A DNA stretch of 64,000 bases from an uncultured Alphaproteobacteria bacterium (GCA_944391465.1 CALXTS010000001.1:90441-154440); one strand, 5' to 3'. Numbered from the stretch's first letter, positions 3,836 to 36,945 are shown. Program-made: numbers and translations. Notes: generated by a model from the sequence alone, not told the origin.

Positions 3836-4675
3836 ATGATACAGATTTATACATGTTATCATAAACCTTTTACTATTCCCAATAGTGACATTTTGGTTCC
3901 GATACATGTCGGAAAGGAGTTGTCTTCCGTTAAAATGGATATAATCGGGGATAATACAGGGGACAATATTTCTCAAAAAAATCCTTATTACTGTGAATTA
4001 ACCGCGACATATTGGATTTGGAAAAATGCAACAGCGGATATTGTCGGCTTATTTCATTATCGTCGTTTTTTGAATTTTGCCAATGATGAGACTTCTTTTT
4101 GTCATTTTGGTAATGATTTTTGCCAAAAGTATGGAATTACCGCAGAGAGAGTTTCAGCAGTTTTGGCGGATTATGATGTTGTTTTGCCTAAGGTAAAGCG
4201 TAAAAGAAAAAATCCTCTTTCCATATATGAACATTATAAAGAGGATCATATCGGAACAGACATGGATTGTGTTTTGCAGGTTATTGATGAAAAGTATCCG
4301 GATGTGTCTGCAACAGCTCGCGAAGTTATTAAAAATGGCGTGGAAACATATATAACAAATATTCTTGTTTGTCGGAAGGATATTTTTGATAAATATGCCG
4401 CGTGGTTGTTTGGAGTTTTGTTTGAAGTCGAAAAGCGCATTCAGGAGAATGTGTTAACGCGTGATAGTTATCAGCAAAGAGTTTACGGATTTTTAGCTGA
4501 AAGAATGATGACGATATTTATTCGGCATATGCAAAAAGTTGCCGGACTTAAAGTAAAAGAGTTGCCTTCTCTTTATTATGAAGATGATGCTAAAAGATGG
4601 CGAAAATATAAGCTAAGACGCTTAAAAAGAAAAATTCTTCACTTTTTTGGGTTAAGGAGAGATGCTGATGCCTAA
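3836..4675 (+). CDS. DUF4422 glycosyltransferase (capsular polysaccharide synthesis type)
   Basis: 279 aa. The N-terminus IQIYTCYHKPFTIPNSDILVPIHVGKEL and the block DNISQKNPYYCELTATYWIWKN followed by GLFHYRRFL are characteristic of DUF4422, a family found in capsule and O-antigen loci and annotated as glycosyltransferase. The C-terminus is strongly basic (KLRRLKRKILHFF), consistent with membrane-surface binding. It overlaps the start of glf by a few bases, indicating translational coupling. The sugar specificity is unknown. A neighbouring UDP-galactopyranose mutase makes a galactofuranosyltransferase role possible, but this is not shown. Confidence 0.8.
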   Translation: MIQIYTCYHKPFTIPNSDILVPIHVGKELSSVKMDIIGDNTGDNISQKNPYYCELTATYWIWKNATADIVGLFHYRRFLNFANDETSFCHFGNDFCQKYGITAERVSAVLADYDVVLPKVKRKRKNPLSIYEHYKEDHIGTDMDCVLQVIDEKYPDVSATAREVIKNGVETYITNILVCRKDIFDKYAAWLFGVLFEVEKRIQENVLTRDSYQQRVYGFLAERMMTIFIRHMQKVAGLKVKELPSLYYEDDAKRWRKYKLRRLKRKILHFFGLRRDADA

Positions 4676-5789
4676 GGTTAATCTGGTTGTCGGTTGTGGT
4701 TTTTCTGGAGCTACAATAGCTCGTAAGTTAGCCGAAGAGTTTGATGAAAAAGTTGTTATTATTGATGCAAAGGATCATATTGCCGGAAATGCTTATGATT
4801 ACAGGGACGAAAACGGGATTATGATTCATAAGTATGGCTCTCATATCTTTCATACAAATTTTGAAAATGTATGGGCGTTTTTAAATCGTTTCTCCTCTTT
4901 TAATACCTATATGCACAAGGTTGTTGCGCTGATTGATGGTGTTGAAACGAATATTCCTTTTAATCTACGAACATTGTATGATGTTTTTCCTCATAGTATG
5001 GCGGAGAGATTAGAGAATAAATTATTGCAAAGTTTTAAATATAATCAAAAAGTACCGATTTTAGAATTTCAGAAGCAAGAAGATGAAGATTTGAAATTTC
5101 TATCCAATTATGTTTATGAAAAAGTTTTTTTGCACTACACTTCTAAACAGTGGGGAACCAGTCCTCAAGATGTTGATGGTGCCGTTACGGCTCGAGTTCC
5201 GGTTTATATTTCTTGTGACCCGAGGTATTTTCAAGATAAGTATCAAGGTATTCCATTAGAAGGATATACGAATTTGGTACAGAAAATGCTTAGTCATTCC
5301 AATATTGAGGTGCGTTTGAATACTTCTTATAAAGATGTGACTGAAAATTACGATAGAGTTTTTTATACCGGTTCAATTGATGAGTTTTTTGATTATAAGT
5401 ACGGAAAGTTGCCGTATCGCAGCGTTAATTTTAAATTAGAAAAATATCATACCGAGTATTATCAGAAAAATGCCGTTGTTAATTATCCGGTTAATTATGA
5501 TTTTACTCGTGTGCATGAATATAAATATTATTTGAATGATGTATCTGATTATACGGTCATTGCAAAAGAATATTCTGAAGCCTTTGAACTAGGTAAAAAT
5601 GAACGGTATTATCCAATTCCCGATGAAAAAAATGTAGTTTTATATAATCAATATTTAAATGAAGCCAAAAAGTATCCGCAGGTTTATTTCCTCGGACGTT
5701 TAGGCGATTATAAATATTATGATATGGATAACGCCGTTTATCGAGCATTGGAACTTTTTGAACGGTTGAGAAATCAAGATAAGTTATAA
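4668..5789 (+). CDS. glf: UDP-galactopyranose mutase
   Basis: About 373 aa, typical for Glf. The flavoenzyme interconverts UDP-Galp and UDP-Galf, the donor for galactofuranose in surface glycans. An N-terminal Rossmann motif VVGCGFSGATIARKL and an acidic strand end (VVIIDAKDHIAGNAYD) bind FAD. The segment KYGSHIFHTN and the C-terminal YFLGRLGDYKYYDMDNAVYRAL are Glf signatures. An in-frame ATG at 4662 is too close to the AAGGAG site (4654-4659), so the ATG at 4668 is preferred. It implies that the glycan made by this locus contains galactofuranose. Confidence 0.95.
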   Translation: MPKVNLVVGCGFSGATIARKLAEEFDEKVVIIDAKDHIAGNAYDYRDENGIMIHKYGSHIFHTNFENVWAFLNRFSSFNTYMHKVVALIDGVETNIPFNLRTLYDVFPHSMAERLENKLLQSFKYNQKVPILEFQKQEDEDLKFLSNYVYEKVFLHYTSKQWGTSPQDVDGAVTARVPVYISCDPRYFQDKYQGIPLEGYTNLVQKMLSHSNIEVRLNTSYKDVTENYDRVFYTGSIDEFFDYKYGKLPYRSVNFKLEKYHTEYYQKNAVVNYPVNYDFTRVHEYKYYLNDVSDYTVIAKEYSEAFELGKNERYYPIPDEKNVVLYNQYLNEAKKYPQVYFLGRLGDYKYYDMDNAVYRALELFERLRNQDKL

Positions 5790-5798
5790 GGCTAAGCT

Positions 5799-7070
5799 AT
5801 GAGTAGTAATAATTTGTTTTTTGATATTGAAACAAAAGATAAATTTGCTGAAGCAGATAATGTTGATTATTATCACAAAAGTCCTGTTGATATTTGTCAT
5901 ATCGTAGAAAAAGGTTTTATTTTACCGGCTAAGAAAAATATCTTATCTTCCGGTAGGCCGTACTTTCAAGGCGGGGTTGTTGATGATAAAAATAATTTTA
6001 TAGAAGGCTCGAAGTGTCTGCGAAAAGACGAGGAAGGCGCATTATTAGAAAGTTATGATTTTAATCAGAAACATGTGGAATATATTGATAAAGATGTATT
6101 GTATGCCGGAATTTTGATTAATCATTTTGGACATTTTCTGGTAGAAAGCTCAAATAGACTGTGGTATTGGCTGGAAAATAGGGATAAAAATTTAGATATT
6201 GTTTTCTTGATAACAAAAAATGCTCATATTTTTCCTCAGTTTTGGGAATTTATGCAGTTGTTGGGGATTGAAAAAGATAAAATACATATCGTTAAGCGCG
6301 TTACACAGTTCAGAACTGTTTATGTTCCGTTTCAGTCTCATGTAATCAGATCTTTTTATACGGATAAATTTCTGGTGCCGTTTGAGTATATTCGTTCTGT
6401 TTTGCCGGATGGAAAAAAGCAAAAAGTTTATTTGTCTCGTACTAAATTAAAAAACGGAACAGTCTGTTTGGGAGAGCAATATATTGAAAAATTGTTCCGT
6501 GATAATGGGTATCGTATTGTATATCCAGAAAAAATTAGTCTCAAAGAACAATTTTCGATAATCAAGAATTCATCGGAATTAGCCGGAGTTAGCGGGACTG
6601 CTATGCATCTGGCACTATGCGCGGATAAACATATTCCGATAACAATTTTAGAAAGAACCGATGTACCGGAGATTGAACAAATTATTATTAATCAGGCTTT
6701 ACAGGCTCAGTCATATCATGTTGGCGTTAATCTAAATCCATTTCCGGTTAATCATAGCGTAGGTCCTATTCTTTTGGGTGTATCGGATAACTTAGTTGCG
6801 TATTGCAAGGATAGAAGATTTAATGTCAATTTGAAATTTGTTAATTTCATTAACAAGTCTGATGCCAGACGTTTTGCCAGCGAATATTTTAGAAAATATT
6901 GTCAAAAATCATATAATAGACTTTTATCAATAGAGGCTCCTTTAGTCGCTCGGAGGATGTTGCTTTTTTCCGGAGCTTTTATTCCGTTAAAACGATTGAT
7001 TAAAGAAAAGTTTAGGGCGATTAGAGCATCTTTGGGAAAGAAATTTCATCAACATTTTGTATCAAACTAA
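5799..7070 (+). CDS. Glycosyltransferase family 61 protein (DUF563)
   Basis: 423 aa. The N-terminal half has the GT61 pattern in which a photogenic loop is followed by an H-x-x-H-F segment, here LINHFGHFLVESSNRLWYW. The C-terminal half has VYLSRTKLKNG and the sequence ELAGVSGTAMHLALCADKHIPITILE, matching the conserved G-x-x-G-x-x-x-x-x-x motif of DUF563 proteins. GT61 enzymes transfer sugars such as xylose or GlcNAc in plants and occur in bacterial capsule loci. The C-terminus is basic. It lies downstream of glf in an uninterrupted plus-strand run. The donor is not predictable. Confidence 0.82.
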   Translation: MSSNNLFFDIETKDKFAEADNVDYYHKSPVDICHIVEKGFILPAKKNILSSGRPYFQGGVVDDKNNFIEGSKCLRKDEEGALLESYDFNQKHVEYIDKDVLYAGILINHFGHFLVESSNRLWYWLENRDKNLDIVFLITKNAHIFPQFWEFMQLLGIEKDKIHIVKRVTQFRTVYVPFQSHVIRSFYTDKFLVPFEYIRSVLPDGKKQKVYLSRTKLKNGTVCLGEQYIEKLFRDNGYRIVYPEKISLKEQFSIIKNSSELAGVSGTAMHLALCADKHIPITILERTDVPEIEQIIINQALQAQSYHVGVNLNPFPVNHSVGPILLGVSDNLVAYCKDRRFNVNLKFVNFINKSDARRFASEYFRKYCQKSYNRLLSIEAPLVARRMLLFSGAFIPLKRLIKEKFRAIRASLGKKFHQHFVSN

Positions 7071-7095: not shown

Positions 7096-8283
7096 ATGGC
7101 TAATGTATATGCTCGTCAGATGTATGATCTTATAAGAAACAATCCTAAAATCGGAGAGTTTGAGCTTGTTGATGAGTTGGTGGAAACTTTTTACGGAGAG
7201 ATTGTTTCTCAAGATGATCAAAAACTGCTTAATTTAGCTTTTTGTGAAAAAGTTGAACAATCTCAAATAGATAAGTTTTTGGAAGAGTGGGATATTGAAC
7301 GTTTTGGCGGTAACAAAGCGTTGATGCTTGCTTATGTTATGAAACAGCATCCTGATTTGAATTTCTCAGATTACGCAGGACCAAGATTATCCGGATTGCT
7401 TAATTTTTGGCGTTTCAAAAATTTAAATCTCATTTCTCATTTTACTAAAATTGTTCGGGAAATGAATAAAAACGGAATTGTTCCGATGATTCTCAAGGGT
7501 GGGGCAATGAAATATTTGCGTCAGGATTTGCCGAGAGTTATGGGTGATATTGATATTTTGGTTCAAACTTTGCCTGAATATAATAAGTCTAAAGAGATTT
7601 CGAAAAAAATGGGGTATGTCTTTTTAGATGAAAAAGATAACGCTCCTTATTCCGTTGATTTACACTTACCTAATAATGAAGATGGGGTTTTGGATATTCA
7701 CGCCTATCTTGATTTTGGAGAAAAGTATAATAAGCGCTTTTTGAAAAATCTGTTCGAAAGAGCAGAGAAAAAACAGGTTTTTGGAGCAGAGGTTTTTGTT
7801 CCGTCAGTTGAAGATATGCTGTTTATCGGTTTGTTAAACATGACGAAGAATTTGCGCTTTAAGACCAGCGTGAGCGGAATTTTATATACTCTGTTTGATT
7901 GTCATTATTTGCAGTCTGTTACAAAAAAGCTCAGATGGGATATTATTCTGGATAATATTGCACAAACACATACACAAGCGCAGATGTATATTGCTATGAA
8001 ATTTGCCAATAGAGTTGTTTCTGGTTTGTTGCCGGAAGATTTATTGGAAGATGATAAACTGCAGAAAAGTATTATAGATTGTTGTAATCAGGAGATTTTT
8101 TATTGCAAATATGTTGATGAAGTCAAGTATATTTGCAAAGGACTAAAGTGGCATCAGGCTTTGGGAGGCTGGCATGCTTTTAAGTATTATGTGAAAAATG
8201 AACTTCTTCATTTTGTTGTTAAAAATATTAGAAAAAGCAAATGCTTGGTCAATATTTTTATGAAAGTTGCAAGAAAAAAGTAA
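7096..8283 (+). CDS. Nucleotidyltransferase family protein (NTP_transf_5 type)
   Basis: 395 aa from the ATG at 7096, which has AGAGG upstream. An in-frame ATG at 7057 lacks a ribosome site and overlaps the preceding gene. The core MILKGGAMKYL, followed by PRVMGDIDILV, is the nucleotidyltransferase fold motif (GG/A helix, then D-x-D). This family is often found beside HprK-like kinases and PqqD-like proteins in lasso-peptide and exopolysaccharide clusters, exactly the arrangement seen here. The nucleotide and target are unknown. It could be an adenylyl- or guanylyltransferase acting on a small molecule or on a partner protein. Confidence 0.75.
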   Translation: MANVYARQMYDLIRNNPKIGEFELVDELVETFYGEIVSQDDQKLLNLAFCEKVEQSQIDKFLEEWDIERFGGNKALMLAYVMKQHPDLNFSDYAGPRLSGLLNFWRFKNLNLISHFTKIVREMNKNGIVPMILKGGAMKYLRQDLPRVMGDIDILVQTLPEYNKSKEISKKMGYVFLDEKDNAPYSVDLHLPNNEDGVLDIHAYLDFGEKYNKRFLKNLFERAEKKQVFGAEVFVPSVEDMLFIGLLNMTKNLRFKTSVSGILYTLFDCHYLQSVTKKLRWDIILDNIAQTHTQAQMYIAMKFANRVVSGLLPEDLLEDDKLQKSIIDCCNQEIFYCKYVDEVKYICKGLKWHQALGGWHAFKYYVKNELLHFVVKNIRKSKCLVNIFMKVARKK

Positions 8284-8293
8284 GGAAAAGCCA

Positions 8294-9778
8294 ATGCAAT
8301 TAAATATAAAAAATAAAGAACAAAAAGAGCAATTTTTGCAAAAAATTAAAGAGAGAGTTGAACAAAATTCTCTATGTTGCCAAAAATATATTGATTTGGG
8401 CGTTAAGGTTGTTCGGGTATTATGTTATGCCCCTGAGTTTTTGCCGTTAATGCAAAAACAGTTGACTTATACTTTAAAAGATTACGCCGATAAGTATGAT
8501 TCTACGTTGGTTATTTGGAAAGAAACAGATGTTGTATCTTTGGCCATGTCTTTAGGTAATGAGTTCGACCCTAAAAAGAATATGCGTTTACGTCTGGATA
8601 TGCTGTATAGCAAAGGAAAATATCCGCAGGTTGAAATTTTAGATGAAACATATTCTTCTTGTGTGCCGATTATGTATTTTAACGGAGAGCATGGTGTTGT
8701 TGAGGCTATGGATACGGATAACCAAATATATTACTATGGTGTAAGTAATCTTGAGCCGGAGGAATTTATTAAACAAGGGCATATTTTTGTTCAGCAACTT
8801 AACAATATTATTAAGACGCCAACGGTTAATTTGGTTCATGGCGCAGTTGTGGGCATGAATAATAACGGAGTGTTGTTTTGTGCCAGAGGTCAACGTGGAA
8901 AATCAACACTTACGGTTTTATCCATGATGAAAGGGTTTGAATATGTTTCAGATGATTATCTGATTTTGGAGGAAAAAGACGAAAAACTATATTCATCTCC
9001 AATTTATTCAATTATTACCCTTAGCCCAAAAATGTATAATGAGCTTTATGATGAATTGAAAGGAAAGTTTGTTTCAAATAATGCTCGTAAAGATAAATAT
9101 GTTATTAATATTGCCGATTATCATAATCAGTTTCGGGTTAATTATCCGATTAAACTTTGTATCTTTCCTGAAATCGTTACGGATAAGGAGCCTAGTATTT
9201 ATGCGTGTTCTTCCGCAGATAAGGGAAGGGCAATTGTTCAGTTGATTCAGTCAACGGTTTCTCAAATGAGGGATTTGAATAATAAGCAGGTAATTCGCAA
9301 GTTATTGAATATGGTTAAAGATTTAGATTTTTATAAATTTAACTTATGTCATGATATTCAGAAAAATACGGCATTTTTAAGAGATTTTCTGCAGAATTTT
9401 AGTGCTAAAAAACTGGAAAATCAAAAGATTGATAAAATTATGGTCGATATAACTTTTGATCTTGCCAATATTTTAGATGCGGAAACCTGTACAATTTATT
9501 CAATGAATAAATTTTCAACGAATATTTATGAGAATTTATTAAACGGAGTAAAAAAAGAAGAAATTTCTGCAGCTTTGCAAAGTGTTTTTGATAAACAAGC
9601 AGGGCTTTCTGAAGTGTTTGATAAATTTGTAAAAACTTTGTTTGACAAAGGTTTTATTATTAATACTGAAGGTTCTTGGAAAGAGCCGAAGATTAATTTA
9701 GATTTTGCCAAAGAAGACAAATATAGATTGTCAATTTTGGAATATACTGGGTCTAAAGCACAAGAGTTAATAAAATAA
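8294..9778 (+). CDS. HprK-related kinase fused to a C-terminal PqqD-like domain
   Basis: About 494 aa from the ATG at 8294 (AAGGA upstream). An earlier in-frame ATG at 8267 overlaps the previous gene. Residues ~180-240 contain VNLVHGAVVGMNNNGVLFCARGQRGKSTLT, an HPr-kinase-like P-loop, followed by FEYVSDDYLIL, the conserved acidic pair of this family. The last ~110 residues form a PqqD-like winged helix (VDITFDLANILDAETCTIYSMN through FDKGFI). HPr kinases phosphorylate a serine of HPr, and relatives such as PadeK phosphorylate lasso peptides. No HPr gene is near. Fusion to a peptide-binding PqqD-like domain suggests a peptide or protein substrate. The function is inferred only. Confidence 0.75.
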   Translation: MQLNIKNKEQKEQFLQKIKERVEQNSLCCQKYIDLGVKVVRVLCYAPEFLPLMQKQLTYTLKDYADKYDSTLVIWKETDVVSLAMSLGNEFDPKKNMRLRLDMLYSKGKYPQVEILDETYSSCVPIMYFNGEHGVVEAMDTDNQIYYYGVSNLEPEEFIKQGHIFVQQLNNIIKTPTVNLVHGAVVGMNNNGVLFCARGQRGKSTLTVLSMMKGFEYVSDDYLILEEKDEKLYSSPIYSIITLSPKMYNELYDELKGKFVSNNARKDKYVINIADYHNQFRVNYPIKLCIFPEIVTDKEPSIYACSSADKGRAIVQLIQSTVSQMRDLNNKQVIRKLLNMVKDLDFYKFNLCHDIQKNTAFLRDFLQNFSAKKLENQKIDKIMVDITFDLANILDAETCTIYSMNKFSTNIYENLLNGVKKEEISAALQSVFDKQAGLSEVFDKFVKTLFDKGFIINTEGSWKEPKINLDFAKEDKYRLSILEYTGSKAQELIK

Positions 9779-9794
9779 GCTAAAGGAGTATAAA

Positions 9795-10268
9795 ATGGCT
9801 AGCTATAAATTAAATGAAGAAAAAATGTTTGCTGATATTACAGATGGTATTGCAATTGTAATCAATAGCGAAACAGGTATTTATTATGGAATGAACGGAT
9901 TGGGTTCCAATGTTTTTGAGAATCTGATGAAAGGGATTTCTGTTGAAAATGTTTTGACAGCATTAAAAGGGATTTCAGGGGCTCCGGCCGATATTGAAAA
10001 TCGTCTGAATGCTTTTGTTGAGGCCGTTGTTGCAAAAGAATTGTTGATTGAAGGTTCTGACAGTTCTGAGACTGCAAATATTGATTCTGGGGCTGCAACT
10101 GAAGATGAATTTACAATGACGGTTGATGAGTATAATGATGCTCAAGAGTTATTGCTGGCAGATCCGATTCATGAAGTTAAGGAAGAAACCGGTTGGACAC
10201 CGGAGAAAGATTCTATCGGATATACCAAAGAAGAAACTCGTGAACGCGAAAAGAAAATGGAAAATTAG
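9795..10268 (+). CDS. PqqD-family protein with acidic C-terminal tail (possible substrate of the adjacent kinase)
   Basis: 157 aa. Residues 1-~95 are a PqqD-like domain: MFADITDGIAIVINSETGIYYGMN, a helix with VFENLMKGIS, and VVAKELLIEG. It is clearly related to the C-terminal domain of the preceding kinase. The remaining ~60 residues are a low-complexity acidic tail (DSSETANIDSGAATEDEFTM onward) with several Ser/Thr, ending in a charged helix KEETREREKKMEN. PqqD-like domains bind leader peptides. A stand-alone copy carrying its own tail could be a carrier or precursor modified by the kinase and nucleotidyltransferase. GGAG-type ribosome site. No peptidase, cyclase or exporter specific to RiPPs lies next to it. 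Confidence 0.7.
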   Translation: MASYKLNEEKMFADITDGIAIVINSETGIYYGMNGLGSNVFENLMKGISVENVLTALKGISGAPADIENRLNAFVEAVVAKELLIEGSDSSETANIDSGAATEDEFTMTVDEYNDAQELLLADPIHEVKEETGWTPEKDSIGYTKEETREREKKMEN

Positions 10269-10269: not shown

Positions 10270-11202
10270 ATGGAAAATTGCGGTATTCCTGTTTTTTTAT
10301 CCGCAGATAACGGGTATGCGCCGTTTGTTGCAACGACAATTGCGTCAATATGCGATCATACCCGTTCATTTATTGATTTTTATATTTTAGATGGCGGAAT
10401 AACTGAGGAAAATAAAAGAAAAATTGAGGAGTTAAAAAAACTGTTTTCTAATTTTTCTATAGAGTTTATTCCTATAGATGTTGATTTTTATTTTAGAAAA
10501 TTTCAGACGAATTCTCAATATTATAGTAAATCAATGTATAGTCGCTACTTGATTCCTGATATAAAACCAAATATTCAGAAAGCTATTTATTCTGATGTTG
10601 ATGTTATTGTTCTTGGCGATATAAAATCAATGTATGATATTGATTTAGAAAATTATATAATAGGTGCTATCGCTTCTCCATTTTTGATGGATAAGCCTAT
10701 TATGTCTGAGATTAAAAAAAATTATAATATTTCTCAAGAACATATTTATTTTTGTTCTGGTAATTTGTTGATAGATTGCCAAAAATGGCGTGAAAATAAT
10801 ATTTTGAAGAAACTTTTTGATATTCAAAAAGCATTTCTTTCTGATACGCCTGCTTGCGATCAGGATATATTAAATAAATGTTTTGATGCTAATTATAAAG
10901 AAATATCATATAGATATTGTGCGACAGAATATCATTTAAAGTATTTTCAGTCATGCCCTGATATGGTTATAAGGCATTTTGGAGTGCCAACAAAACCGTG
11001 GATGATAAATCCTTCGACTAAGACTTCTTTGTGTCCTAATTTGTTAGATTTTTGGAAATATGCTAAAATGACGTTATTTTATGATGAATTACTAAATAAT
11101 GTTTCTGATGATGAACAACAAAAATCTTTAATGAGAAAATTACATATAAGGAATATTTGGTTTTGTAAAGAATTTTCAAGTAAAAATGATGAGAATTGTT
11201 GA
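10270..11202 (+). CDS. Glycosyltransferase family 8 (LgtC-like)
   Basis: 310 aa from the ATG at 10270, one base after the preceding stop; the longer upstream reading is only overlap. The start CGIPVFLSADNGYAPFVATTIASIC is the GT8 N-terminus. The catalytic metal motif SDVDVIVLGDI (about residue 105) and the conserved CSGNLLIDCQKWRE, DQDILNKCF and VIRHFGVPTKPW segments follow. GT8 enzymes are retaining galactosyl- or glucosyltransferases in LPS and capsule synthesis. It is the first of three related GT8 genes in this locus. Confidence 0.88.
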   Translation: MENCGIPVFLSADNGYAPFVATTIASICDHTRSFIDFYILDGGITEENKRKIEELKKLFSNFSIEFIPIDVDFYFRKFQTNSQYYSKSMYSRYLIPDIKPNIQKAIYSDVDVIVLGDIKSMYDIDLENYIIGAIASPFLMDKPIMSEIKKNYNISQEHIYFCSGNLLIDCQKWRENNILKKLFDIQKAFLSDTPACDQDILNKCFDANYKEISYRYCATEYHLKYFQSCPDMVIRHFGVPTKPWMINPSTKTSLCPNLLDFWKYAKMTLFYDELLNNVSDDEQQKSLMRKLHIRNIWFCKEFSSKNDENC

Positions 11203-11215: not shown

Positions 11216-12763
11216 ATGTTGGCTAAAGAATTAGTTGAAAAAATAAATAAGGTTGATGTTGTATCTTTTGATATCTTTGATACTTTGTTATGTAGGACTT
11301 TTTTATATCCGACGGATGTTTTTAAATATGTAGCAAGTATGAGTAATTGTCTTGATTTTTATAATGTTCGCAGGGTTGCGGAAAATAGGGCTTTTAATGC
11401 GATAAAATCTACGAGCAAAGAAGATGTTACCTATGATGAGATTTATCAAAATATGGGAGATAAATATCTATATTTAAAAAACTTAGAAATGAATATTGAA
11501 GAAAAATGTCTTTATCAAAATCCAATAGCTTTTGAAATTTACGAATATGCCAGAAAGCAGAAAAAGAAAATTATTGCTGTATCAGATATGTATCTTTCTG
11601 AAAAATTTTTAAGTGATGTTTTAGAAAAGCGTGGGTATATGATTGATAAAGTATATGTTTCAAATACATATGCTTTAACTAAAAGAGAAGGGTCTTTGTA
11701 TAATTTTGTTGTTTCTGATTTGAAACTTTCATCAGATAGATTTTTACATATAGGTGATAATCAGTTGTCTGATGTAAAAAAAGCCTCTGAATGTGGATGG
11801 AATGTTTATTATTTACCAGCACCTAGGGATAATTTGAGATTACCTTTTAAATTAGTTGATTGCGATAAAGTTCCTGGGTTAATGTCAGGGATGTCTGTGT
11901 ATGGTATGTTATATGGGCGTGTCGATGATTATTGGTATAATGTCGGATATTATTTAGGCGGAATATTGCTTTATTCATATGTCGCTGAATTAAAAAAGAT
12001 TTTAGAAATTCGAAAGATAAAAAATGTTTTTTTTGTTGCGCGGGACGGTTGGCCACTTTATCAGGTTTTTTCGATTTTGAATAATGATAGTGATATAAAA
12101 TTTCATTATATATATGCTTCTAGGATATTGAAAAAGAAATATATGAATTCAGATACATATGCTGTTGATAAGAAATACAAAGATTATTTGTCGAAATTAG
12201 TAACAGGTAATGAAGATGTTGCCATAGTAGATACATGTGCTGAAAATTTCTCTGCTCAAACGTTAATAGAGGCAACTTTACCAAATAATAAATTTTTAGG
12301 GGTTTATATTACGGCAAAGCAAAATTATAAATTCAATTTTATTAATTTGATTAATAGTGATTTCCCCGCTAGAGATAATTGGTTGTTTGTTGAAACGTTA
12401 TTGACATCATTTGAAAATCCTATTGAAGAAATTAGTAACGGACAACCGGTATATCGTTCAGATACTATTGAGGATACTAAGATTCATGAACGTTTTAAAA
12501 GTATATATAAAGGAGAAATGGATTTTATTTCAGATGTAAAAAAGATGTTTGGAGACTTTTTGTTGTGTTCAAATATAAAAGACATAATAGATTTTTATGG
12601 TTTCTTTTTTAATAATATGTCCGAAGAAGATAAATCGTATTTTAAAACAGTTAAAATATCTGTCGATATTGAACAAAAAAATTTTCAGACGTTGCTTGAT
12701 AGTTCTTCAAATTTGTTTTCACTCTTAAGAAAAAAAATTAAAAAGGAAACAGATAATGACTAA
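11216..12763 (+). CDS. HAD-superfamily protein of polysaccharide loci
   Basis: 515 aa. HAD motif I is FDIFDTLLCR (residues ~18-27), motif II is in the IIAVSDMYLS region, a conserved lysine lies in ALTKREGS, and motif III is FLHIGDNQLSDVKKA. The second Asp of the usual DxDGT motif is present as D-I-F-D. The C-terminal half (from ~230) is an unassigned domain with VFFVARDGWPLYQVF and DTCAENFSAQTL, seen in many large proteins of glycan clusters. It may be a phosphatase of a sugar phosphate or a glycosyltransferase-associated module; the exact role is unknown. It lies 13 bases after the GT8 gene. Confidence 0.7.
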   Translation: MLAKELVEKINKVDVVSFDIFDTLLCRTFLYPTDVFKYVASMSNCLDFYNVRRVAENRAFNAIKSTSKEDVTYDEIYQNMGDKYLYLKNLEMNIEEKCLYQNPIAFEIYEYARKQKKKIIAVSDMYLSEKFLSDVLEKRGYMIDKVYVSNTYALTKREGSLYNFVVSDLKLSSDRFLHIGDNQLSDVKKASECGWNVYYLPAPRDNLRLPFKLVDCDKVPGLMSGMSVYGMLYGRVDDYWYNVGYYLGGILLYSYVAELKKILEIRKIKNVFFVARDGWPLYQVFSILNNDSDIKFHYIYASRILKKKYMNSDTYAVDKKYKDYLSKLVTGNEDVAIVDTCAENFSAQTLIEATLPNNKFLGVYITAKQNYKFNFINLINSDFPARDNWLFVETLLTSFENPIEEISNGQPVYRSDTIEDTKIHERFKSIYKGEMDFISDVKKMFGDFLLCSNIKDIIDFYGFFFNNMSEEDKSYFKTVKISVDIEQKNFQTLLDSSSNLFSLLRKKIKKETDND

Positions 12764-13775
12764 AATTTCTGTGATTATACCGGTTTATAATGCTCAAGAA
12801 TATTTAAGACGTTGTTTGGATAGCGTTGTCAATCAAACTTTAAAAGATATAGAAATTATCTGCGTAAATGATTGTTCAACGGATAATTCTTTACAAATTT
12901 TGAAAGTGTATGCTTTAAAGCATAAAAATTTGAAAGTTATTGACTGTAAAGTAAATGGTGGGGAATCTGTTGCCCGAAATATTGGTTTAGAAAACGCCAA
13001 AGGTGAATACCTTGGCTTTGTTGATAATGATGATGCTATAGATTTGGATTTTTATGAAAAGCTTTATAAGAAAGCTAAAGCAGAGAATGCAGATATCTGT
13101 AAAGGGGAAGTTCATGAAATTTCTTATGATGGCAAGGATGTTTTTGGATATTTGAATCAGTTGATCCGTAAACATGGAAGTAAATTATATTTTTCATATT
13201 ATTGGTGGACGGCTATTTATAGACATTCAATTGTTAAAGATTTTAAAATTAGATTTCCCGAAGGGTATCCTTTGGGAGGAGATGTTTTGTTTTTGAATCA
13301 GGTTTTACTGAATTCACAAAAAATTTCTTTGGTCGATGATGCTTTTTATCATTATTATCGTCGAAAAGATAGCGGGGATTCAAAGGTTTTATCAATGGAA
13401 AAATTGAAATCTGTTCTTACAATTCATGGTATAATTTTAGATAATTTATTGTCTTCATCAGTGTGTGTTACAGATATAAAAGGGGTTAGTTACGTTTGTT
13501 CTTGGTGTTTAGATTCTGCTTTAAGTTATGCTTTTAGGGTTAATAGTTTAGAAGGATTGGATTATTGTGTTGAAAAAGCATTTATCTTTTATAAAAAAGC
13601 AAAAAATAAATTTTTAGCTGACTGTGTTAGTGTTTTGCCAATTGTTATGGATTTTTTAAGGAGAGATGACAAAGAAGGGTTAAAGTTATTTTATCAGGCA
13701 AATAATTCTCCGTCTAAAATGTTTATGGCAAATTTAAGATGGTTGCATAATAAGAAGGAGAAGAAAAATGATTAA
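12756..13775 (+). CDS. Glycosyltransferase family 2 (copy A)
   Basis: 339 aa. The N-terminal GT-A domain has ISVIIPVYNAQEYLRRCLDSV, the NDCSTDNS loop, the NGGESVARNIGLENAKGEYLGFVDNDDAID donor/metal region and, later, YYWWTAIYRHSIVKDF. It overlaps the preceding gene by 8 bases with AAGGA before its start, so the two are coupled. The first ~230 bp are nearly identical to the gene at 14655, while the second halves differ, pointing to duplication and later divergence of the acceptor domain. Confidence 0.9.
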   Translation: MTKISVIIPVYNAQEYLRRCLDSVVNQTLKDIEIICVNDCSTDNSLQILKVYALKHKNLKVIDCKVNGGESVARNIGLENAKGEYLGFVDNDDAIDLDFYEKLYKKAKAENADICKGEVHEISYDGKDVFGYLNQLIRKHGSKLYFSYYWWTAIYRHSIVKDFKIRFPEGYPLGGDVLFLNQVLLNSQKISLVDDAFYHYYRRKDSGDSKVLSMEKLKSVLTIHGIILDNLLSSSVCVTDIKGVSYVCSWCLDSALSYAFRVNSLEGLDYCVEKAFIFYKKAKNKFLADCVSVLPIVMDFLRRDDKEGLKLFYQANNSPSKMFMANLRWLHNKKEKKND

Positions 13776-14673
13776 TATTCCGATTTTTTTATCATCTGAT
13801 GATAATTATGCACCATTTGTTGCAACAACGATTGCAAGTATTTGTGATAATACAAAATCATTTTGTGATTTTTATATTCTTGATGGTGGGATATCAGATG
13901 AAAATAAAAGAAAAATTTGTGAGCTTAAAAGTTTATTTAGTAATTTTTCAATTGAATTTATTAGAATTGATATAAATAGTTCTTTTAAAGAATTTGCTGA
14001 GTCTTCTTATATTACTAAATCTATGTATAGTCGTTTTCTTATACCTAATATTAAGCCAGAGATTGATAAGGCTATTTATTCTGATGTTGATGTTATTGTT
14101 TTAGGTGATATTGCAAGAATGTATTTAGAAAATTTAGATGGTTACGATGTAGGAGCTGTTTGGGAAGGTTGGATAGCTAATGAAATCAATAAGTCTATAT
14201 ATATCAACGGACATGAACCTTTTTTTTCAGGAAACTTGTTGATAGATTGTTGTAAATGGAGAGAAAAAAATATTGGTGATGAATTAATAAAAATTGCGAA
14301 GAGTAATAAAGAAAATAGAAATATTTATGATCAAGAAATTTTGAATTTATATTTTGGAAATAATTATAAAAAATTGTCATGCCGCTATTGTTATGCTGTT
14401 CAATTTTCTCTTGTAAATTATGATAGTGTGACTCCAATTATTAGGCATTTTAATGGAAGTATAAAACCATGGAATATTCATCCAGACATTAAGACATCTT
14501 TAATGAAAAATTTAGATGATTTTTGGTTTTATATGAAGAAAACTTCTTTTTATGATGAAATTTTAAATAAAGTCACAAATACGGATGAACAGAAAAAAAT
14601 AACAAGGCAATTGCAAATGAGTAACTTTATTATAGCTAGAAGGATGAAAAATTTATGCCAAAACTCTCGGTAA
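13768..14673 (+). CDS. Glycosyltransferase family 8 (copy B)
   Basis: 301 aa. NIPIFLSSDDNYAPFVATTIASIC at the N-terminus, the metal motif SDVDVIVLGDIARM near residue 105, FFSGNLLIDCCKWREKN, YDQEILNLYF and IIRHFNGSIKPWNIHP are GT8 hallmarks. It overlaps the upstream GT2 and the downstream GT2 by short stretches, so A-B-A-B genes are translationally linked. Its N-terminal third is close to the GT8 genes at 10270 and 15667. The composition is markedly AT-rich. Confidence 0.88.
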   Translation: MINIPIFLSSDDNYAPFVATTIASICDNTKSFCDFYILDGGISDENKRKICELKSLFSNFSIEFIRIDINSSFKEFAESSYITKSMYSRFLIPNIKPEIDKAIYSDVDVIVLGDIARMYLENLDGYDVGAVWEGWIANEINKSIYINGHEPFFSGNLLIDCCKWREKNIGDELIKIAKSNKENRNIYDQEILNLYFGNNYKKLSCRYCYAVQFSLVNYDSVTPIIRHFNGSIKPWNIHPDIKTSLMKNLDDFWFYMKKTSFYDEILNKVTNTDEQKKITRQLQMSNFIIARRMKNLCQNSR

Positions 14674-15665
14674 TTATACCAGTTTATAATGCTCAAGAAT
14701 ATTTAAGACGTTGTTTGGATAGCGTTATCAATCAAACATTAAAAGATATAGAAATTATCTGCGTAAATGATTGTTCAACGGATAGTTCTTTACAAATTTT
14801 GGAAGAATATGCTTTAAAGCATAAAAATTTGAAAGTTATTGATTGTAAAGTTAACGGCGGGGAATCTGTTGCCAGAAATATTGGTTTAGAAAATGTTGCG
14901 GGAGAATATCTTGCGTTTGTTGATAATGACGATGCAATAGATTTAGATTTTTTTGAGAAACTTTATAATAAAGCTAAGGCTGAAGATGCGGATATTGCTA
15001 GAGGAGAAGCTCATTATGTGAGTTATGATGGTAAGTCATTTATCAATAAAGATCATATTAAGAGAACAGCTCGTAATAAGTTTTATTTTTCTAATGATTG
15101 GTGGTGTGGAATTTTTAAAACATCTCTGATAAAAAAGCATGAGATTAAGCTATTGCCAGGTTTTTATATTAGTTCTGATGTTATCTTTTTGATTAAAGCT
15201 GTGACTTATGCAAATAGGGTTGCCACGGTTGCAGATGTTTATTATCACCATTACGATAGAGAAAATAGCGGATTTTCTAAATTTTTAACTAAAGAAAAGA
15301 TTCTTTCAGGTGTAAAAGCTGTGCAAATTGTTCTTAATTTTTTAAATCAAGAATATTTGTATGATAAGGATACTGAAGGTTATGATTGGTTATTTGAAGA
15401 ACAATTTCGGATTTTATTAAATTTACATTATCATAATAACGATGCTTCATTAGTCTATTTGTATTCAGACGCAATGATTAAATTGTATAATTGTTGTGAA
15501 AGAGCTGAGAATTTATATAGCTTTTTGGAAAAAGATTTTCCTTGTATTGCTCATTTTATTAAGAATGAAAATTATAGGGAGCTTAGCATGTTTTTAACTT
15601 GCTATATGACACAAATAAAATTTTTATCTGAAAATCTAAGAGCTAATTTGAAGAAAAGGAAGTAA
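14655..15665 (+). CDS. Glycosyltransferase family 2 (copy C)
   Basis: 336 aa. The same N-terminal GT2 domain as the gene at 12756 (LSVIIPVYNAQEYLRRCLD, NDCSTDSS, FVDNDDAIDLDFFEKLY) precedes a distinct C-terminal half (FSNDWWCGIFKTSLIKKHEI). It overlaps the preceding GT8 by 19 bases and ends one base before the next GT8. The duplicated GT2-GT8 arrangement suggests that each pair adds a disaccharide step, but the order cannot be read from sequence. Confidence 0.9.
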   Translation: MPKLSVIIPVYNAQEYLRRCLDSVINQTLKDIEIICVNDCSTDSSLQILEEYALKHKNLKVIDCKVNGGESVARNIGLENVAGEYLAFVDNDDAIDLDFFEKLYNKAKAEDADIARGEAHYVSYDGKSFINKDHIKRTARNKFYFSNDWWCGIFKTSLIKKHEIKLLPGFYISSDVIFLIKAVTYANRVATVADVYYHHYDRENSGFSKFLTKEKILSGVKAVQIVLNFLNQEYLYDKDTEGYDWLFEEQFRILLNLHYHNNDASLVYLYSDAMIKLYNCCERAENLYSFLEKDFPCIAHFIKNENYRELSMFLTCYMTQIKFLSENLRANLKKRK

Positions 15666-15666
15666 T

Positions 15667-16545
15667 ATGCAGAATATTCCAATCTTTTTATCGTCTGATG
15701 ATAATTATGCTCCGTTTGTGGCAACGACAATTGCAAGTGTTTGTGATAATACAAAATCATTTTGTGATTTTTATATTCTTGATGGCGGTATAACAGATGA
15801 AAATAAAAGAAAAATTGAGGAGTTGAAGAAAAGGTTTGATAATTTTTCTATTAATTTCATAAGTGTTAGTTATGACGATTTAAATAACATTGTTTATAAA
15901 AATTACTCTACAAATGTTACAATTGCGACATATAATCGTTTTCTTATTCCGAAATTTTGTAAATCTGATAAATGTATTTATCTTGATGTTGATGTTATTT
16001 TATTAGGAAATATTGAAGATTTATATAATATTGATTTAATGGGGTATCCTTTAGGTGCTGTCAAGGATCAGTATAATGAAGATTTTATTACTAAGATTAA
16101 AGAAAAAATGCAGATTGATAATTTATCTCCATATTTTAATGCTGGTGTTTTATTAATTGATTGTTCTAAATGGAAAAATTTAGAGATAACCCAAAAATTG
16201 TTTGATATTGATAAATGTTATAAGGATAGTTTGACGTTTGCAGATCAAGATGTTTTAAATAAATGTTTTGAAAATAATTATCTTTTATTAGATAAAAAAT
16301 TTAATGTCATTGTTGATAATGATGAGATTGTTGTTAGACATTTTGCTGGTTTGATTAAACCATGGCAAGCAGACTTTATGCTTGATGATAAAAACAAGCC
16401 TTACAAAAATAAAAATGTGGATTGTTTTTGGAAATATGCGGCAATGACGCCATTTTATGAAAAAATTTGTTTGATAAAAGAACGCTTCTTGTCTTCGAGT
16501 ATGCTTTGGAAACATTATAATAATATGGTTAATAAAGGGGTATAA
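15667..16545 (+). CDS. Glycosyltransferase family 8 (copy D)
   Basis: 292 aa with an AGGAAG ribosome site. It starts NIPIFLSSDDNYAPFVATTIASVC and carries LDVDVILLGNIEDLYN (metal motif), YFNAGVLLIDCSKWKN, ADQDVLNKCF and VVRHFAGLIKPWQ. It uses YLDVDV where copies at 10270 and 13768 have YSDVDV, and has a shorter C-terminus. It probably transfers a hexose to the growing surface glycan from UDP-sugar in the cytoplasm. Confidence 0.88.
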   Translation: MQNIPIFLSSDDNYAPFVATTIASVCDNTKSFCDFYILDGGITDENKRKIEELKKRFDNFSINFISVSYDDLNNIVYKNYSTNVTIATYNRFLIPKFCKSDKCIYLDVDVILLGNIEDLYNIDLMGYPLGAVKDQYNEDFITKIKEKMQIDNLSPYFNAGVLLIDCSKWKNLEITQKLFDIDKCYKDSLTFADQDVLNKCFENNYLLLDKKFNVIVDNDEIVVRHFAGLIKPWQADFMLDDKNKPYKNKNVDCFWKYAAMTPFYEKICLIKERFLSSSMLWKHYNNMVNKGV

Positions 16546-16547
16546 AC

Positions 16548-17729
16548 ATGGATTTGAAAGAACGATTAAGTAAAATAATGGCGCAGAAAAATCAAGTGTC
16601 TGATACAGATGCTTTGAAAATTAAAAATGAATTGGCTAAGGTTCATTCATTTCCATTAAACAATAACACGGTTGCCGTAATTGAGTCTCATAGGAAACAT
16701 GCTGAAGTTTATCCTTCAGTTATTAAATATTTTTTGGATTTGGGTTATGATGTTCATTTATTTCATTTAGAAGAACATAAAAAAGATAATTCTTTATGCA
16801 GATGTTCTTTTGATGTAAACAGATTTCATGAATTCGTTTTTCCTCAAATGCCTGAAACAGAAGAATTTTTTGATATTTTGACAAAGTATTCTTATGTTTT
16901 TGTTATGACAATGTTTACGCATAATGGATATAATTTCTTAAATTCTTTAGAAAAAGGTTTTATGCAAAAATATCAACGGGATAATGTATATTGTATTGAT
17001 CATGATTTTGTTTCTTTTCAAAAAAATATGCAAAGTATTGAACAACGCTTTTTGAATCAAAACAAGGTTTTTGTTCTTCGTGATGGAATTGAGTATAACG
17101 GAAAAACTTTACCGTTCGTTTCTCCAATATATTTTGGACAATCTAAAATTACTCCCAAAAATGATAAAACAAATTTTATTTGTGTTGGAGGCGGATGGCA
17201 AAATAATCTGCGCAACTTTAAGTTGTTGTTTGAAAACATTAATAATTTGATTGAAAATGCTCATACTGATTTTAAAGTAACTTTTATTGGAGCAACCAGA
17301 ACGATGTTAGAAGAGTTTATTACCCCTCTAAATGAATCTTTTTTAGATATCAGAGGTTTTGCTCCGTTTTCTGAACTTTATGATTGTATGGAACAAGCTG
17401 ATTTTATATTGTTTAATATTGATGATACATGCAATGAGTTTGAAAAATATTTGAAGTTGGGAATTACCGGATCTTATTCTTTAGCTATCGGATTTTCAAA
17501 ACCAGCTATCATTTTTGAGCCTTTGGTCTCTGTTTATGGAATGAATGGGGCGGTTATTTCTTATACAAAAGCAACTTTGGGAAATGCTATGGAACAAGCC
17601 ATTATGCTATCTAAGCAGAATTATGAGCAATTGCAAAAAAATATGAGACTGTTAAATGAAACTTGCATGTCTCGTTCTTTGAATAATATGAAAAAATTTT
17701 TGTTAGGTAGGGTAGAGGAAAATAAATGA
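16548..17729 (+). CDS. Putative glycosyltransferase (GT-B-like)
   Basis: 393 aa. The first half has VAVIESHRKHAEVYPSVIKYFLDLGYDVHLFHLEEHK and the second half FICVGGGWQNNLRNFKLLFENI, VTFIGATRTML, LDIRGFAPFSELYDCMEQADFILFNID and ITGSYSLAIGFSKPAIIFEPL. A Gly-rich loop followed by an E/D-containing helix and a search-type C-terminus fits a GT-B fold. No exact family is recognised. It overlaps the next start by 4 bases (ATGA). Confidence 0.6.
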   Translation: MDLKERLSKIMAQKNQVSDTDALKIKNELAKVHSFPLNNNTVAVIESHRKHAEVYPSVIKYFLDLGYDVHLFHLEEHKKDNSLCRCSFDVNRFHEFVFPQMPETEEFFDILTKYSYVFVMTMFTHNGYNFLNSLEKGFMQKYQRDNVYCIDHDFVSFQKNMQSIEQRFLNQNKVFVLRDGIEYNGKTLPFVSPIYFGQSKITPKNDKTNFICVGGGWQNNLRNFKLLFENINNLIENAHTDFKVTFIGATRTMLEEFITPLNESFLDIRGFAPFSELYDCMEQADFILFNIDDTCNEFEKYLKLGITGSYSLAIGFSKPAIIFEPLVSVYGMNGAVISYTKATLGNAMEQAIMLSKQNYEQLQKNMRLLNETCMSRSLNNMKKFLLGRVEENK

Positions 17730-18766
17730 ATAAGAATTTAAGTGAAGATATGTTGGTAACCTTAAATAACGGGATAAAAATGCCTAGGCTTGGTATTGGT
17801 GTAGATAGATTGAAAGGAGATGATGTTGTATCTTCAGTTTATTTAGCAATTAAAGCAGGATATAGAATGATTGATACTGCTTCTTTGTATCGGAATGAAA
17901 AAGAAGTTGGGAAAGCTATACAGATGAGCATGGCAGAAGGAATAGTAAAAAGAGAAGATTTATTTGTTTCTTCAAAAGCACCTTATTTTTTTCCAGGAAG
18001 AAAAGAAACTATTGATGGTTATAAAGAAAGTTGTAGAAATTTAGGACTTGAATATTTGGATTTATATATGTTGCATCATCCGTATAGGGAATATTTTTCA
18101 TGGCAAAAAGAAATAGTTTCTTCTTGGGAAGGATTAGAGGATTTATATTTTTCAGGAGACGTGAAATCTATTGGGGTTAGTAATTTTTCGTGGCCTTATT
18201 TTGATGTGTTGTTTAATTGTTGTAAAATTATGCCTGTTACTAATCAACTAGAGTGTCATCCTCAACATCAGAATATTGAAGCTGTTTTAACTTGTAGAGA
18301 AAGGGGAATTCAAGTTGTTTCATGGTCTCCTCTTAATAGAGGAAGAATCGTTGAAGAGCCTTTAATAAAAAATTTAGCTCTGAAATATAACAAAACGGCA
18401 GCTCAGATTGCATTAAGATGGAATATTCAAAAAGGTAATGCCTTGCTTGTACGTTCAACTAAAGAAGAAAGAATTTTGTCAAATAACGATATTTGGAATT
18501 TTTCTTTATCTTCTGATGATATGGAGCTTTTAAATCAATTAAAACCAGATAATTATGCAAGAGGACATACAAGCGATGTTGTTCCAATAGGGATGATGCC
18601 TTTTAAAAGCTATCAATCTTATTTTTTTTCAAAGGATTATGTAAAGAAGTATAAATTGTTTGGCTTTATTCCCTTCCTTAAAATAAAAAGATACAATCAA
18701 ACAATAAAATGGTTTTTATTTGGAATCCCTATCTTAAAATGTAAGTTTGTAAAGAAAGAAGGTTAA
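17726..18766 (+). CDS. Aldo/keto reductase with a glycan-locus C-terminal tail
   Basis: 346 aa. Residues ~10-285 are an AKR TIM barrel: MPRLGIGVDRL, AGYRMIDTASLYRNEKEVGKAI (catalytic Asp/Tyr), FVSSKAP (Lys), YLDLYMLHHPY (His), GVSNFSWP, and NADP-binding LVRSTKEERILSNN. The last ~40 residues are unlike AKRs: a pair of short repeats KLFGFIPFLKIK and FLFGIPILKCK in a basic/aromatic setting. This tail is shared by many enzymes of bacterial surface-glycan loci and may be a membrane or complex anchor. The enzyme could reduce a keto-sugar precursor or aldehyde used by the locus. Confidence 0.85.
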   Translation: MNKNLSEDMLVTLNNGIKMPRLGIGVDRLKGDDVVSSVYLAIKAGYRMIDTASLYRNEKEVGKAIQMSMAEGIVKREDLFVSSKAPYFFPGRKETIDGYKESCRNLGLEYLDLYMLHHPYREYFSWQKEIVSSWEGLEDLYFSGDVKSIGVSNFSWPYFDVLFNCCKIMPVTNQLECHPQHQNIEAVLTCRERGIQVVSWSPLNRGRIVEEPLIKNLALKYNKTAAQIALRWNIQKGNALLVRSTKEERILSNNDIWNFSLSSDDMELLNQLKPDNYARGHTSDVVPIGMMPFKSYQSYFFSKDYVKKYKLFGFIPFLKIKRYNQTIKWFLFGIPILKCKFVKKEG

Positions 18767-20772: not shown

Positions 20773-20978
20773 GATTTTAGCCTATCTTCGTTTTTAGTTT
20801 TTATCATCTTCATTTGAGGATATGGAAAGTTGATACTGTTAGTTCATAATATTTTGAAGGCTAATATGTTCTGGTGGCACTGCTAGTGCCATATTTTTCC
20901 GTGTCTGTTTTTTTATATCAATTTTAATCTGATTAAATTTTTTCATTAAATTTGTTTTTTTTGTAAATGGAGATGAAG

Positions 20979-33380: not shown

Positions 33381-33863
33381 CTAAGCATAAAACGTATGAT
33401 TGCCGATACTAGCAACCACTTGCATTTTGTTAACCCATGACGGCGCTTTAGATAGACTACCAAGCGCCAAATAATTAGTTGCTCCGTTGGTGATGTCCGG
33501 GAGCGCGCCGGCATAAGCTAGGCCGGCCAGATTCTTGGCAACCGCAAAACTATCGTCGGAATCGTTCACAGCTAACATAGGCGCATAATTCGGGTCCGAC
33601 TTGTTCCAAACGCTGAATTGGCTTTTTTTAGTGCATACTTCTTTGGGAGTTGCACCCCACCAGCTGCCGGCTTTAACCCTATTCATGATTACATTTAAAA
33701 CTGCCTGCATTCCCTTTATTCCTTCTCCGCGTGCCTCTCCCCAAGCTGTTCGAGCCATTATATCAATTTCATGTTCATCGTTTGTTGCAATCATTTTGCC
33801 GCCTCTCAATAAAAAATAAATACCGGCAAAAGCTACAAGACCTGCGCCGATAGGATTTTCCAT
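33381..33863 (-). CDS. Prophage cell-wall hydrolase, SleB/Hydrolase_2 family
   Basis: 160 aa from the ATG at 33863 (GGAGGATAGT upstream; a longer reading to 33893 overlaps the next gene). An N-terminal TM (GAGLVAFAGIYFLLRGG) is followed by DIMARTAWGEARGEGIKGMQAVLNVIMNRV, with the catalytic Glu in GEARGE, and QFSVWNK. SleB-like lytic transglycosylases cut the glycan strand. The anchor suggests a virion-associated enzyme for entry or an endolysin held in the membrane. Confidence 0.88.
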   Translation of the reverse strand: MENPIGAGLVAFAGIYFLLRGGKMIATNDEHEIDIMARTAWGEARGEGIKGMQAVLNVIMNRVKAGSWWGATPKEVCTKKSQFSVWNKSDPNYAPMLAVNDSDDSFAVAKNLAGLAYAGALPDITNGATNYLALGSLSKAPSWVNKMQVVASIGNHTFYA

Positions 33864-33864
33864 A

Positions 33865-34185
33865 CTATCCTCCAAGCTCTTGAATACGAACACGCCAAGC
33901 AGCTCTTTGTTTAATTAATTCCGCATAATCTTCTGCAGTGGCTACCCCTTCTGAAATTTTAATAATAGCATAATCTGATTCTGATAACTTAGATTTTAAT
34001 TTAATTATTTCCTCTGCAGCTACAAGTTCTGCAGGTTTTTCTGGTGCATAGCCTTCCTGATAAAATTTCCCATTATATGAAAAATCCAAATCAACAAAAT
34101 CTAAATTTTTTTTTTCAGCTTCTATTTGATTTATCACTTTATATTCACGAGTTGTTTTATCAATTAATTCAGCTCTTAATCTCAT
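33865..34185 (-). CDS. Tail-fibre-chaperone-like protein of the prophage
   Basis: 106 aa. The end LKSKLSESDYAIIKISEGVATAEDYAELIKQRAAWRVRIQEL resembles the C-terminal helix pair of phage tail assembly chaperones (SDYxxxK, then AWRxxI). Such a protein in a genome without tail genes suggests that it assists folding of a receptor-binding spike. The base composition is more AT-rich than the other phage genes. Confidence 0.6.
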   Translation of the reverse strand: MRLRAELIDKTTREYKVINQIEAEKKNLDFVDLDFSYNGKFYQEGYAPEKPAELVAAEEIIKLKSKLSESDYAIIKISEGVATAEDYAELIKQRAAWRVRIQELGG

Positions 34186-35481: not shown

Positions 35482-35699
35482 TATAACCCCCTCTTAATCA
35501 GCTTTAACGCAATAAAGGCAAAGCCGGCAAGGGCTAGCGTTTTAACCAGCCCTAAACCTTGTTTGCCTGATGTGTTGGATATAAAATTGTTGCCGATTTT
35601 GCCGCCGGTTGCGGTTGATGTCGCCGAACTGCCAAAGTCATATGACATTTCGCCCGATGCTTTGCCAATTAATCCGGCGTTGCCGTCACTACCTGCCAT
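35481..35699 (-). CDS. Single-TM prophage protein (72 aa)
   Basis: A Gly/Ser/Ala-rich N-terminus and a C-terminal TM (VKTLALAGFAFIALKLIKR). AGGGGGATAAA upstream. It shares its architecture with the two flanking genes and overlaps the next start by one base. Confidence 0.7.
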   Translation of the reverse strand: MAGSDGNAGLIGKASGEMSYDFGSSATSTATGGKIGNNFISNTSGKQGLGLVKTLALAGFAFIALKLIKRGL

Positions 35700-35709
35700 T
35701 TTATCCCCC

Positions 35710-35982: not shown

Positions 35983-35992
35983 ATTTTACCCC

Positions 35993-36925: not shown

Positions 36926-36945
36926 TTGCTAAAACTCCCAAAAAA

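Follow-up and report, generated by a model that had tools for sequence, protein, structure and literature searches.

A nucleotidyltransferase, an HprK-like kinase and a tailed PqqD protein form a conserved module, possibly RiPP-like, in the glycan loci of gut bacteria

In a 64,000-nucleotide stretch of DNA from an uncultured alphaproteobacterium with a genome of 1.58 Mb (GCA_944391465.1, CALXTS010000001.1:90441-154440; the whole stretch is called the window below), three adjacent genes encode a nucleotidyltransferase (P0001), an HprK-like kinase (P0002) and a protein with a PqqD domain and a peptide-like tail (P0003). We find that gut bacteria from two phyla share this trio as a conserved module, relatives of which also occur among cyanobacteria and free-living alphaproteobacteria. 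By analogy, it is best read as akin to the tailoring systems of paeninodin and of the LPPs, as a phosphopeptide module resembling those of ribosomally synthesized and post-translationally modified peptides (RiPPs), here without cyclase or peptidase. We tentatively favour the view that P0003 unites a RiPP recognition element (RRE) and the peptide it recognizes in one protein, the tail of which is modified and feeds glycan assembly. An earlier note, made from the DNA alone, had placed a nucleotidyltransferase, a kinase-PqqD fusion and a PqqD protein with a tail inside a polysaccharide locus; the open reading frames, found at the coordinates it gave, the domain matches and the glycosyltransferase surroundings all agree with this description (Table 1).

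That the trio is a real unit and no chance arrangement follows from its recurrence, with gene order unchanged, in dozens of genomes and from the tail codons of P0003, which differ between genomes mostly at synonymous positions (17-21 synonymous against 1-4 non-synonymous differences, of 40 codons). In the window, the genes are separated by only 10 bases (P0001-P0002) and 16 bases (P0002-P0003), and a single base separates P0003 from the GT8 gene that follows. We surveyed the context of 31 fetched gut loci with P0003, 29 of which lie on contigs long enough to hold the full trio. The kinase gene stands directly upstream of P0003 in 30 of the 31, the exception being a locus (L076) whose kinase gene lies elsewhere in that genome, on a second contig (L027), and the order nucleotidyltransferase, kinase, P0003 on one strand is kept in 25 of the 29 testable Candidatus Gastranaerophilales loci, at the head of a glycosyltransferase operon. 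Behind the gut trio come GT2, GT8, DUF4422/HAD-type and further glycan genes, and the survey for co-occurrence with GT8/GT2 genes, a check that had been proposed along with the original annotation, was strongly positive.

The distribution of the module is uneven. None of the other sampled genomes of the window's genus has the kinase, and in the order to which it belongs the sole close relative is a kinase/nucleotidyltransferase fragment at a contig end (G190). A scan of GTDB contigs returned twelve close relatives, eleven labelled Candidatus Gastranaerophilales and one 'uncultured bacterium', and a P0003 profile found matches in 33 of 286 sampled Gastranaerophilales genomes (one of them weak, one a fragment). 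In the kinase tree, the window groups with the gut sequences, apart from the cyanobacterial kinases, with full support. Together, the distribution and the tree suggest that the cassette spread horizontally between gut lineages, including the window's alphaproteobacterium. The tree does not resolve the sister of the window kinase within the gut clade and points to no donor lineage for the cassette. A search of viral contigs for relatives of the kinase found none.

The wider family came to light on a plasmid. Searching plasmids with P0003 gave one useful match, to pCRI9333.04 of Crinalium epipsammum, on which genes for a PqqD protein, a nucleotidyltransferase and an HPr kinase stand in a row, adjoined by FkbM and glycosyltransferase genes, and on which the PqqD protein ends in ...LEKFTDMEDLLLLDPIHEVDVEAGWPNAKTA. 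Searches by phylum and class recovered the same tail end on PqqD proteins of further cyanobacteria and of free-living alphaproteobacteria, with an HprK-like kinase and often nucleotidyltransferase and GT2 genes nearby. All readable true matches of the tail profile belong to PqqD proteins, at the C-terminus or, in L125, internally; a match in one genome (G970, at 1749527) was discarded as not being a tail. At L125, RRE, tail and kinase follow one another in a single 649-aa protein, a natural fusion that ties the RRE-tail unit and the kinase together. The Crinalium plasmid is mobilizable and carries a group II intron reverse transcriptase shortly upstream of the trio (L097, NC_019735.1, 2736-4445), which is a possible route of transfer.

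The RRE of P0003 has a PqqD match that exceeds the gathering cut-off (Table 1), and its residues 1-87 match the RREs of lasso B1 proteins, both by profile (TbiB1 RRE-leader complex, E 1.1e-5) and by structure (TbiB1, Z 11.0, root-mean-square deviation 2.0 Å over 83 residues); its fold is closest to the lasso B1 RREs TbiB1 and TfuB1. P0003 is the best conserved of the trio: its relatives are 61-70% identical to the window's copy, whereas the kinase reaches 49-55% and the nucleotidyltransferase 30-42%. Within P0003, conservation runs opposite to what one would expect: mean pairwise identity is 0.61 in the RRE, 0.35 in the linker, 0.71 in residues 106-122 and 0.86 in residues 123-148, and the most conserved part of the whole cassette is formed by the last ~35 residues (LLADPIHEVKEETGWTPEKDSIGY), which are predicted to be disordered. 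In the predicted structure, residues 110-113 form a strand and residues 116-122 a helix, ahead of a segment with a predicted local distance difference test (pLDDT) score below 50 (125-143). The hallmark of the tail is a near-invariant LLxxDPIHEVxxxxGW (also written LLxLDPIHEVxxxGWP); the gut consensus reads Y-x-DAQELLLADPIHEVKEETGWTPEKDSIGYTKEET, with Ser140 present in 30 of 30 aligned members. One homologue (L128, in genome G688) carries a long Asn/Thr/Ser-rich insertion in its linker with the tail motif intact, which shows that the length of the linker is free. An acidic Ser/Thr tail of about 60 residues, as first described, is indeed present (19 D/E, 7 K/R and 9 S/T in the last 61 residues), and it is the best candidate substrate; its key feature is the motif rather than acidity or richness in Ser/Thr. 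The gut lineage keeps just one invariant hydroxyl, Ser140, and the cyanobacterial and free-living alphaproteobacterial relatives keep no conserved Ser/Thr.

Upstream of the core-like segment, the tail contains what resembles a leader. The RREs of lasso and LPP systems bind a motif [Y/W]xxPx[V/L] in the leader of their precursors (PMC13381572), and a motif of the form [F/Y/W]xxPx[L/V] is found exactly 18 residues before DP in 14 of 18 non-gut tails, as part of a segment that reads [FYW]xxPxLxKYTDMxxLL. A script counted 13 of the 18, having missed L156 (YEIPEL) because of an earlier DP in that sequence, against an average of 0.59 and never more than 4 in 5,000 shuffles. With an RRE-binding motif at a fixed distance before DP, P0003 looks like an RRE fused to its own leader and core, and the simplest reading of the sequences is that P0003 proteins are RRE-leader-core fusions. 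In the gut lineage the position of the motif is kept as [F/Y]x[L/M]x[V/L]xxY, the proline being gone, and the segment is degenerate in the window's P0003.

The kinase has its catalytic residues intact. According to its AlphaFold model (mean pLDDT 87.8), P0002 has the PEPCK/HprK fold (PEPCK, phosphoenolpyruvate carboxykinase). VIA-align returned PEPCKs and no HprK for this model, but among Foldseek's top chains only, so that the missing HprK is no evidence against kinship with HprK; against PDB sequences P0002 gave no match. All of 28 kinase sequences share H182, the P-loop GQRGKST including K203, and the pair D220-D221, and a His-Lys-Asp-Asp (HKDD) set is required in lasso-peptide tailoring kinases (PMC9266682). 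The PqqD domain that had been ascribed to the kinase is below the gathering cut-off on its own (PF05402, residues 393-455, E 0.0014), but residues 379-492 align with the neighbouring P0003 at 30% identity, and the fusion is thus real. It is not essential, though: the three divergent kinases of loci L077-L079, of 363-370 aa, stop before the domain, which is thus dispensable and accessory. The kinase closes with a degenerate leader-like end (residues 469-494), and its C-terminal RRE resembles a copy that bears such an end but no core. The nucleotidyltransferase scores 60.2 bits against PF14907 (gathering cut-off 31.2), and D151, D153 and D200 are invariant in a 10-sequence alignment. Unlike the gut enzymes, the Crinalium NTP_transf_5 protein (L097, 6367-7428) has apparently lost its DxD residues (RPISNFHLLV); a second nucleotidyltransferase gene lies at the edge of that region.

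How these parts might cooperate is indicated by analogy with LppK, PadeK/ThcoK and PsmN. LppK polyphosphorylates one Ser of LppA in a capsule-locus system with the RRE LppB and the NTP transferase LppN (PMC13381572). Like PadeK/ThcoK, it phosphorylates one Ser of an RRE-bound peptide, often several times (PMC13381572, PMC9266682), while PsmN, a homologous 'nucleotidyltransferase' that acts on pseudomycoidin, attaches hexoses to phospho-Ser (PMC9266682). By the same logic, the RRE of P0003 would bind its own leader-like strand (~106-122) in cis and present the disordered core (123-148) to the HprK-like kinase, which would phosphorylate it, in the gut lineage most likely at Ser140. The NTP_transf_5 protein could then decorate the phosphate with a nucleotidyl or hexosyl group, as has been proposed for PsmN. 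The product might be used or extended by the GT8/GT2 operon next to it, either as a peptide that bears glycan or as one that takes part in glycan assembly.

Several observations weigh against this reading. The residues that are invariant across all lineages (D, LL, DP, I/V, H, G and W) include no Ser/Thr. The tails of cyanobacteria and free-living alphaproteobacteria have nothing that corresponds to Ser140, several of them lack any Ser/Thr after GWP, and LppK accepts Ser only (PMC13381572); either the acceptor differs by lineage or the tail is not the phospho-acceptor. The acceptor is thus uncertain, and a universal Ser phosphosite is rejected, as tails from beyond the gut lineage show no conserved Ser/Thr. 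Moreover, 0 of 30 gut-lineage members, the window included, have the canonical leader motif, and the HEV...GWP part has been lost from L158 and L160, both alphaproteobacterial. Finally, RiPP cores are usually variable, whereas the core of P0003 is nearly fixed.

With the deepest invariants free of Ser/Thr and Ser140 found in the gut lineage only, the tail is nearly as likely to serve purely for docking as to be a modified substrate, and we regard docking as a serious possibility, if a somewhat weaker one. The tail would then be a docking or activating peptide, its leader-like part plugging the RRE and DPIHEV...GWP binding the kinase or the nucleotidyltransferase; P0003 would be a scaffold, and the true substrate of the kinase a glycan, a lipid-linked sugar or an unlinked peptide. 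The near-invariance of the tail suits a binding motif, its internal position in the L125 fusion and the core-less, leader-like end of the gut kinase's own RRE point the same way, and the residues shared by all lineages offer no conserved acceptor. Yet a leader motif of the kind found in RiPP substrates stands directly before the core, and a docked peptide might be predicted to be ordered, although a single-chain model cannot test this. Nor is an alternative precursor conserved near the trio: among small open reading frames within 4 kb of the gut trio, none is conserved in at least three loci, and a separate precursor peptide was rejected on these grounds.

If the tail is modified, one could further speculate, with rather low confidence, that P0003 is a peptide-tethered primer: phosphorylation of the tail and a sugar added by the nucleotidyltransferase would start a glycan that GT8/GT2 enzymes extend in the cytoplasm on the protein. 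Polysaccharide or glycopeptide synthesis would then be protein-primed, and its starter of RiPP type. It fits this idea that a transmembrane scan of the gut operons found no recurrent flippase or polymerase genes and no recurrent polytopic membrane protein apart from an MsbA-like ABC exporter, with which some operons end (at the 3' end of four gut loci, L029, L080, L081 and L084); the window's operon contains no polytopic membrane protein.

Regulation at the protein level, in which the kinase reversibly phosphorylates P0003 or the glycosyltransferases as an HPr-like switch for glycan synthesis, is improbable. The kinase is related to HprK and shares an operon with glycosyltransferases, but its matches to HPr kinase/phosphorylase models fall below cut-off (TIGR00679, 14.3 of 240 bits, far below and in the P-loop region only; PF07475, 18.7 of 33.3 bits), the nearest family models are HprK-related kinases and not HprK itself, and HPr control involves neither a nucleotidyltransferase nor an RRE. 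A functionless, decayed or cryptic lasso-type cluster that lost its cyclase and peptidase would explain the lasso-like RRE and the absence of cyclase, peptidase and separate precursor, but is highly implausible given that the tail is under strong purifying selection, that the catalytic residues are conserved and that many genomes keep the gene order.

The kinship with lasso-type tailoring that had been suspected from the sequence is supported by the intact HKDD kinase, the NTP_transf_5 protein and an RRE nearest TbiB1/TfuB1, and the reported lack of a lasso cyclase or peptidase holds for the scanned window genes and the recurrent genes of the gut loci. The LPP system of Paenibacillus alginolyticus (LppA/K/B/S/D/N; PMC13381572) likewise combines an HprK-like kinase, an NTP transferase and an RRE in capsule-type loci, and its leader motif resembles that of 14 of the 18 non-gut relatives, against 0 of 30 in the gut lineage, while the four exporter-bearing gut loci have an MsbA-like protein as it does. 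It differs in phylum and in its variable core; in P0003, the RRE is joined in one chain to leader and core, the gut-lineage kinase bears an RRE domain of its own, and the window's operon has no exporter and no SipW-like leader peptidase (no archaeal-type SpI enzyme was noticed). Paeninodin and pseudomycoidin tailoring (PadeK/ThcoK, PsmK/PsmN; PMC9266682) shares the HKDD kinase, an NTP_transf-like partner and a discrete B1-type RRE, whereas the trio lacks the asparagine-synthetase-like lasso cyclase, the B2 peptidase and a separate A peptide. The proposed link to HPr-related kinase/PqqD systems holds in so far as an HprK-related kinase stands beside a PqqD protein, but the HPr-rel-A models are not reached: P0002 scores 26.7 of 200 bits with TIGR04352, the HprK_rel_A match in its P-loop region (E 2.8e-6) is far under that model's cut-off, P0003 is not matched by the PqqD_rel_X model TIGR04353, which matched 1 of 30 PqqD proteins (E 0.099), and the cyanobacterial relatives also fall below the HPr-rel-A cut-offs. 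With PqqD/PqqA of pyrroloquinoline quinone biosynthesis, the trio has in common the RRE fold and a peptide with a conserved core; it differs in lacking PqqA/B/C/E genes, in joining RRE and peptide in one chain, and in having a kinase and a nucleotidyltransferase, not radical SAM chemistry, as constant partners.

A literature search found no earlier report of the DPIHEV motif or of the trio architecture, although it did not reach many subscription papers and an earlier description is possible. Finding RRE-based RiPP clusters relies on a separate precursor nearby. In a 2025 survey, 21% of PF05402 proteins were longer than a bare RRE and without other annotation (PMC12710340); if a subset of these carries a peptide in the same chain, as P0003 appears to do, this shows where to seek the missing precursor. 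The tail is also a concrete candidate substrate for the pair of HprK-like kinase and NTP transferase that recurs in capsule and exopolysaccharide loci. The biological roles of LPPs are called unknown by their discoverers (PMC13381572), and glycosylation of the tail, if true, would join glycan assembly and RiPP chemistry in a direct way.

Table 1 Positions of the trio, the segments of its tail and the surrounding glycan genes in the window
Feature	Position	Strand	Basis
P0001, NTP_transf_5 family nucleotidyltransferase, 395 aa	7096..8283	+	Pfam PF14907, E 3e-16
P0002, HprK-like kinase, 494 aa	8294..9778	+	PEPCK/HprK fold (model); C-terminal RRE (PqqD) ~380-455
P0003, PqqD/RRE protein that includes a peptide tail, 157 aa	9795..10268	+	Pfam PqqD, E 3.1e-6
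Leader-like segment of P0003, residues 106-122 (FTMTVDEYNDAQELLLA)	10110..10160	+	Alignments, predicted strand/helix, motif survey
Core-like segment of P0003, residues 123-148 (DPIHEVKEETGWTPEKDSIGYTKEET), contains Ser140	10161..10238	+	Conservation, pLDDT
GT8 glycosyltransferase, opens the glycosyltransferase run behind the trio	10270..11202	+	PF01501, E 4e-43
Rest of operon: HAD-type, GT2, GT8, GT2, GT8, unassigned 393-aa protein, aldo/keto reductase	11216..18766	+	
Upstream glycan genes: DUF4422, UDP-galactopyranose-mutase-like (judged by eye), GT61	3836..7070	+	

Besides glycosyltransferases, the gut operons carry a recurrent cargo of aldo/keto reductase, radical SAM protein, FkbM methyltransferase and split transketolase. 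The split transketolase pair (clusters 10 and 11) occurs in about seven gut glycan operons (e.g. L021, L024, L090, L095 and L096) and suggests an unusual sugar precursor. The radical SAM protein, of about 330 aa, is encoded near the 3' part of the operons in L091 (14726-15712) and eight other gut loci; radical SAM enzymes are often partnered with RREs. An apparent fusion of P0003 to GT2 in L077 was rejected, as the joint holds undetermined bases (translated as XX) and the neighbouring nucleotidyltransferase gene is frameshifted. Directly behind the glycan cluster of the window, a gene at 20967-22595 has a counterpart in just one other of 34 same-genus genomes (G024, 70% identity), and the right flank of the cluster is thus sporadic too. 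Further along, at 33381-40022, lies a gene set that, with translations judged by eye only, resembles an integrated small tailless virus, with a cell-wall hydrolase (33381-33893, minus strand), a 310-aa candidate capsid protein (35993-36925, minus strand), an FtsK/A32-like packaging ATPase (37161-37835, minus strand) and a DNA-binding regulator.

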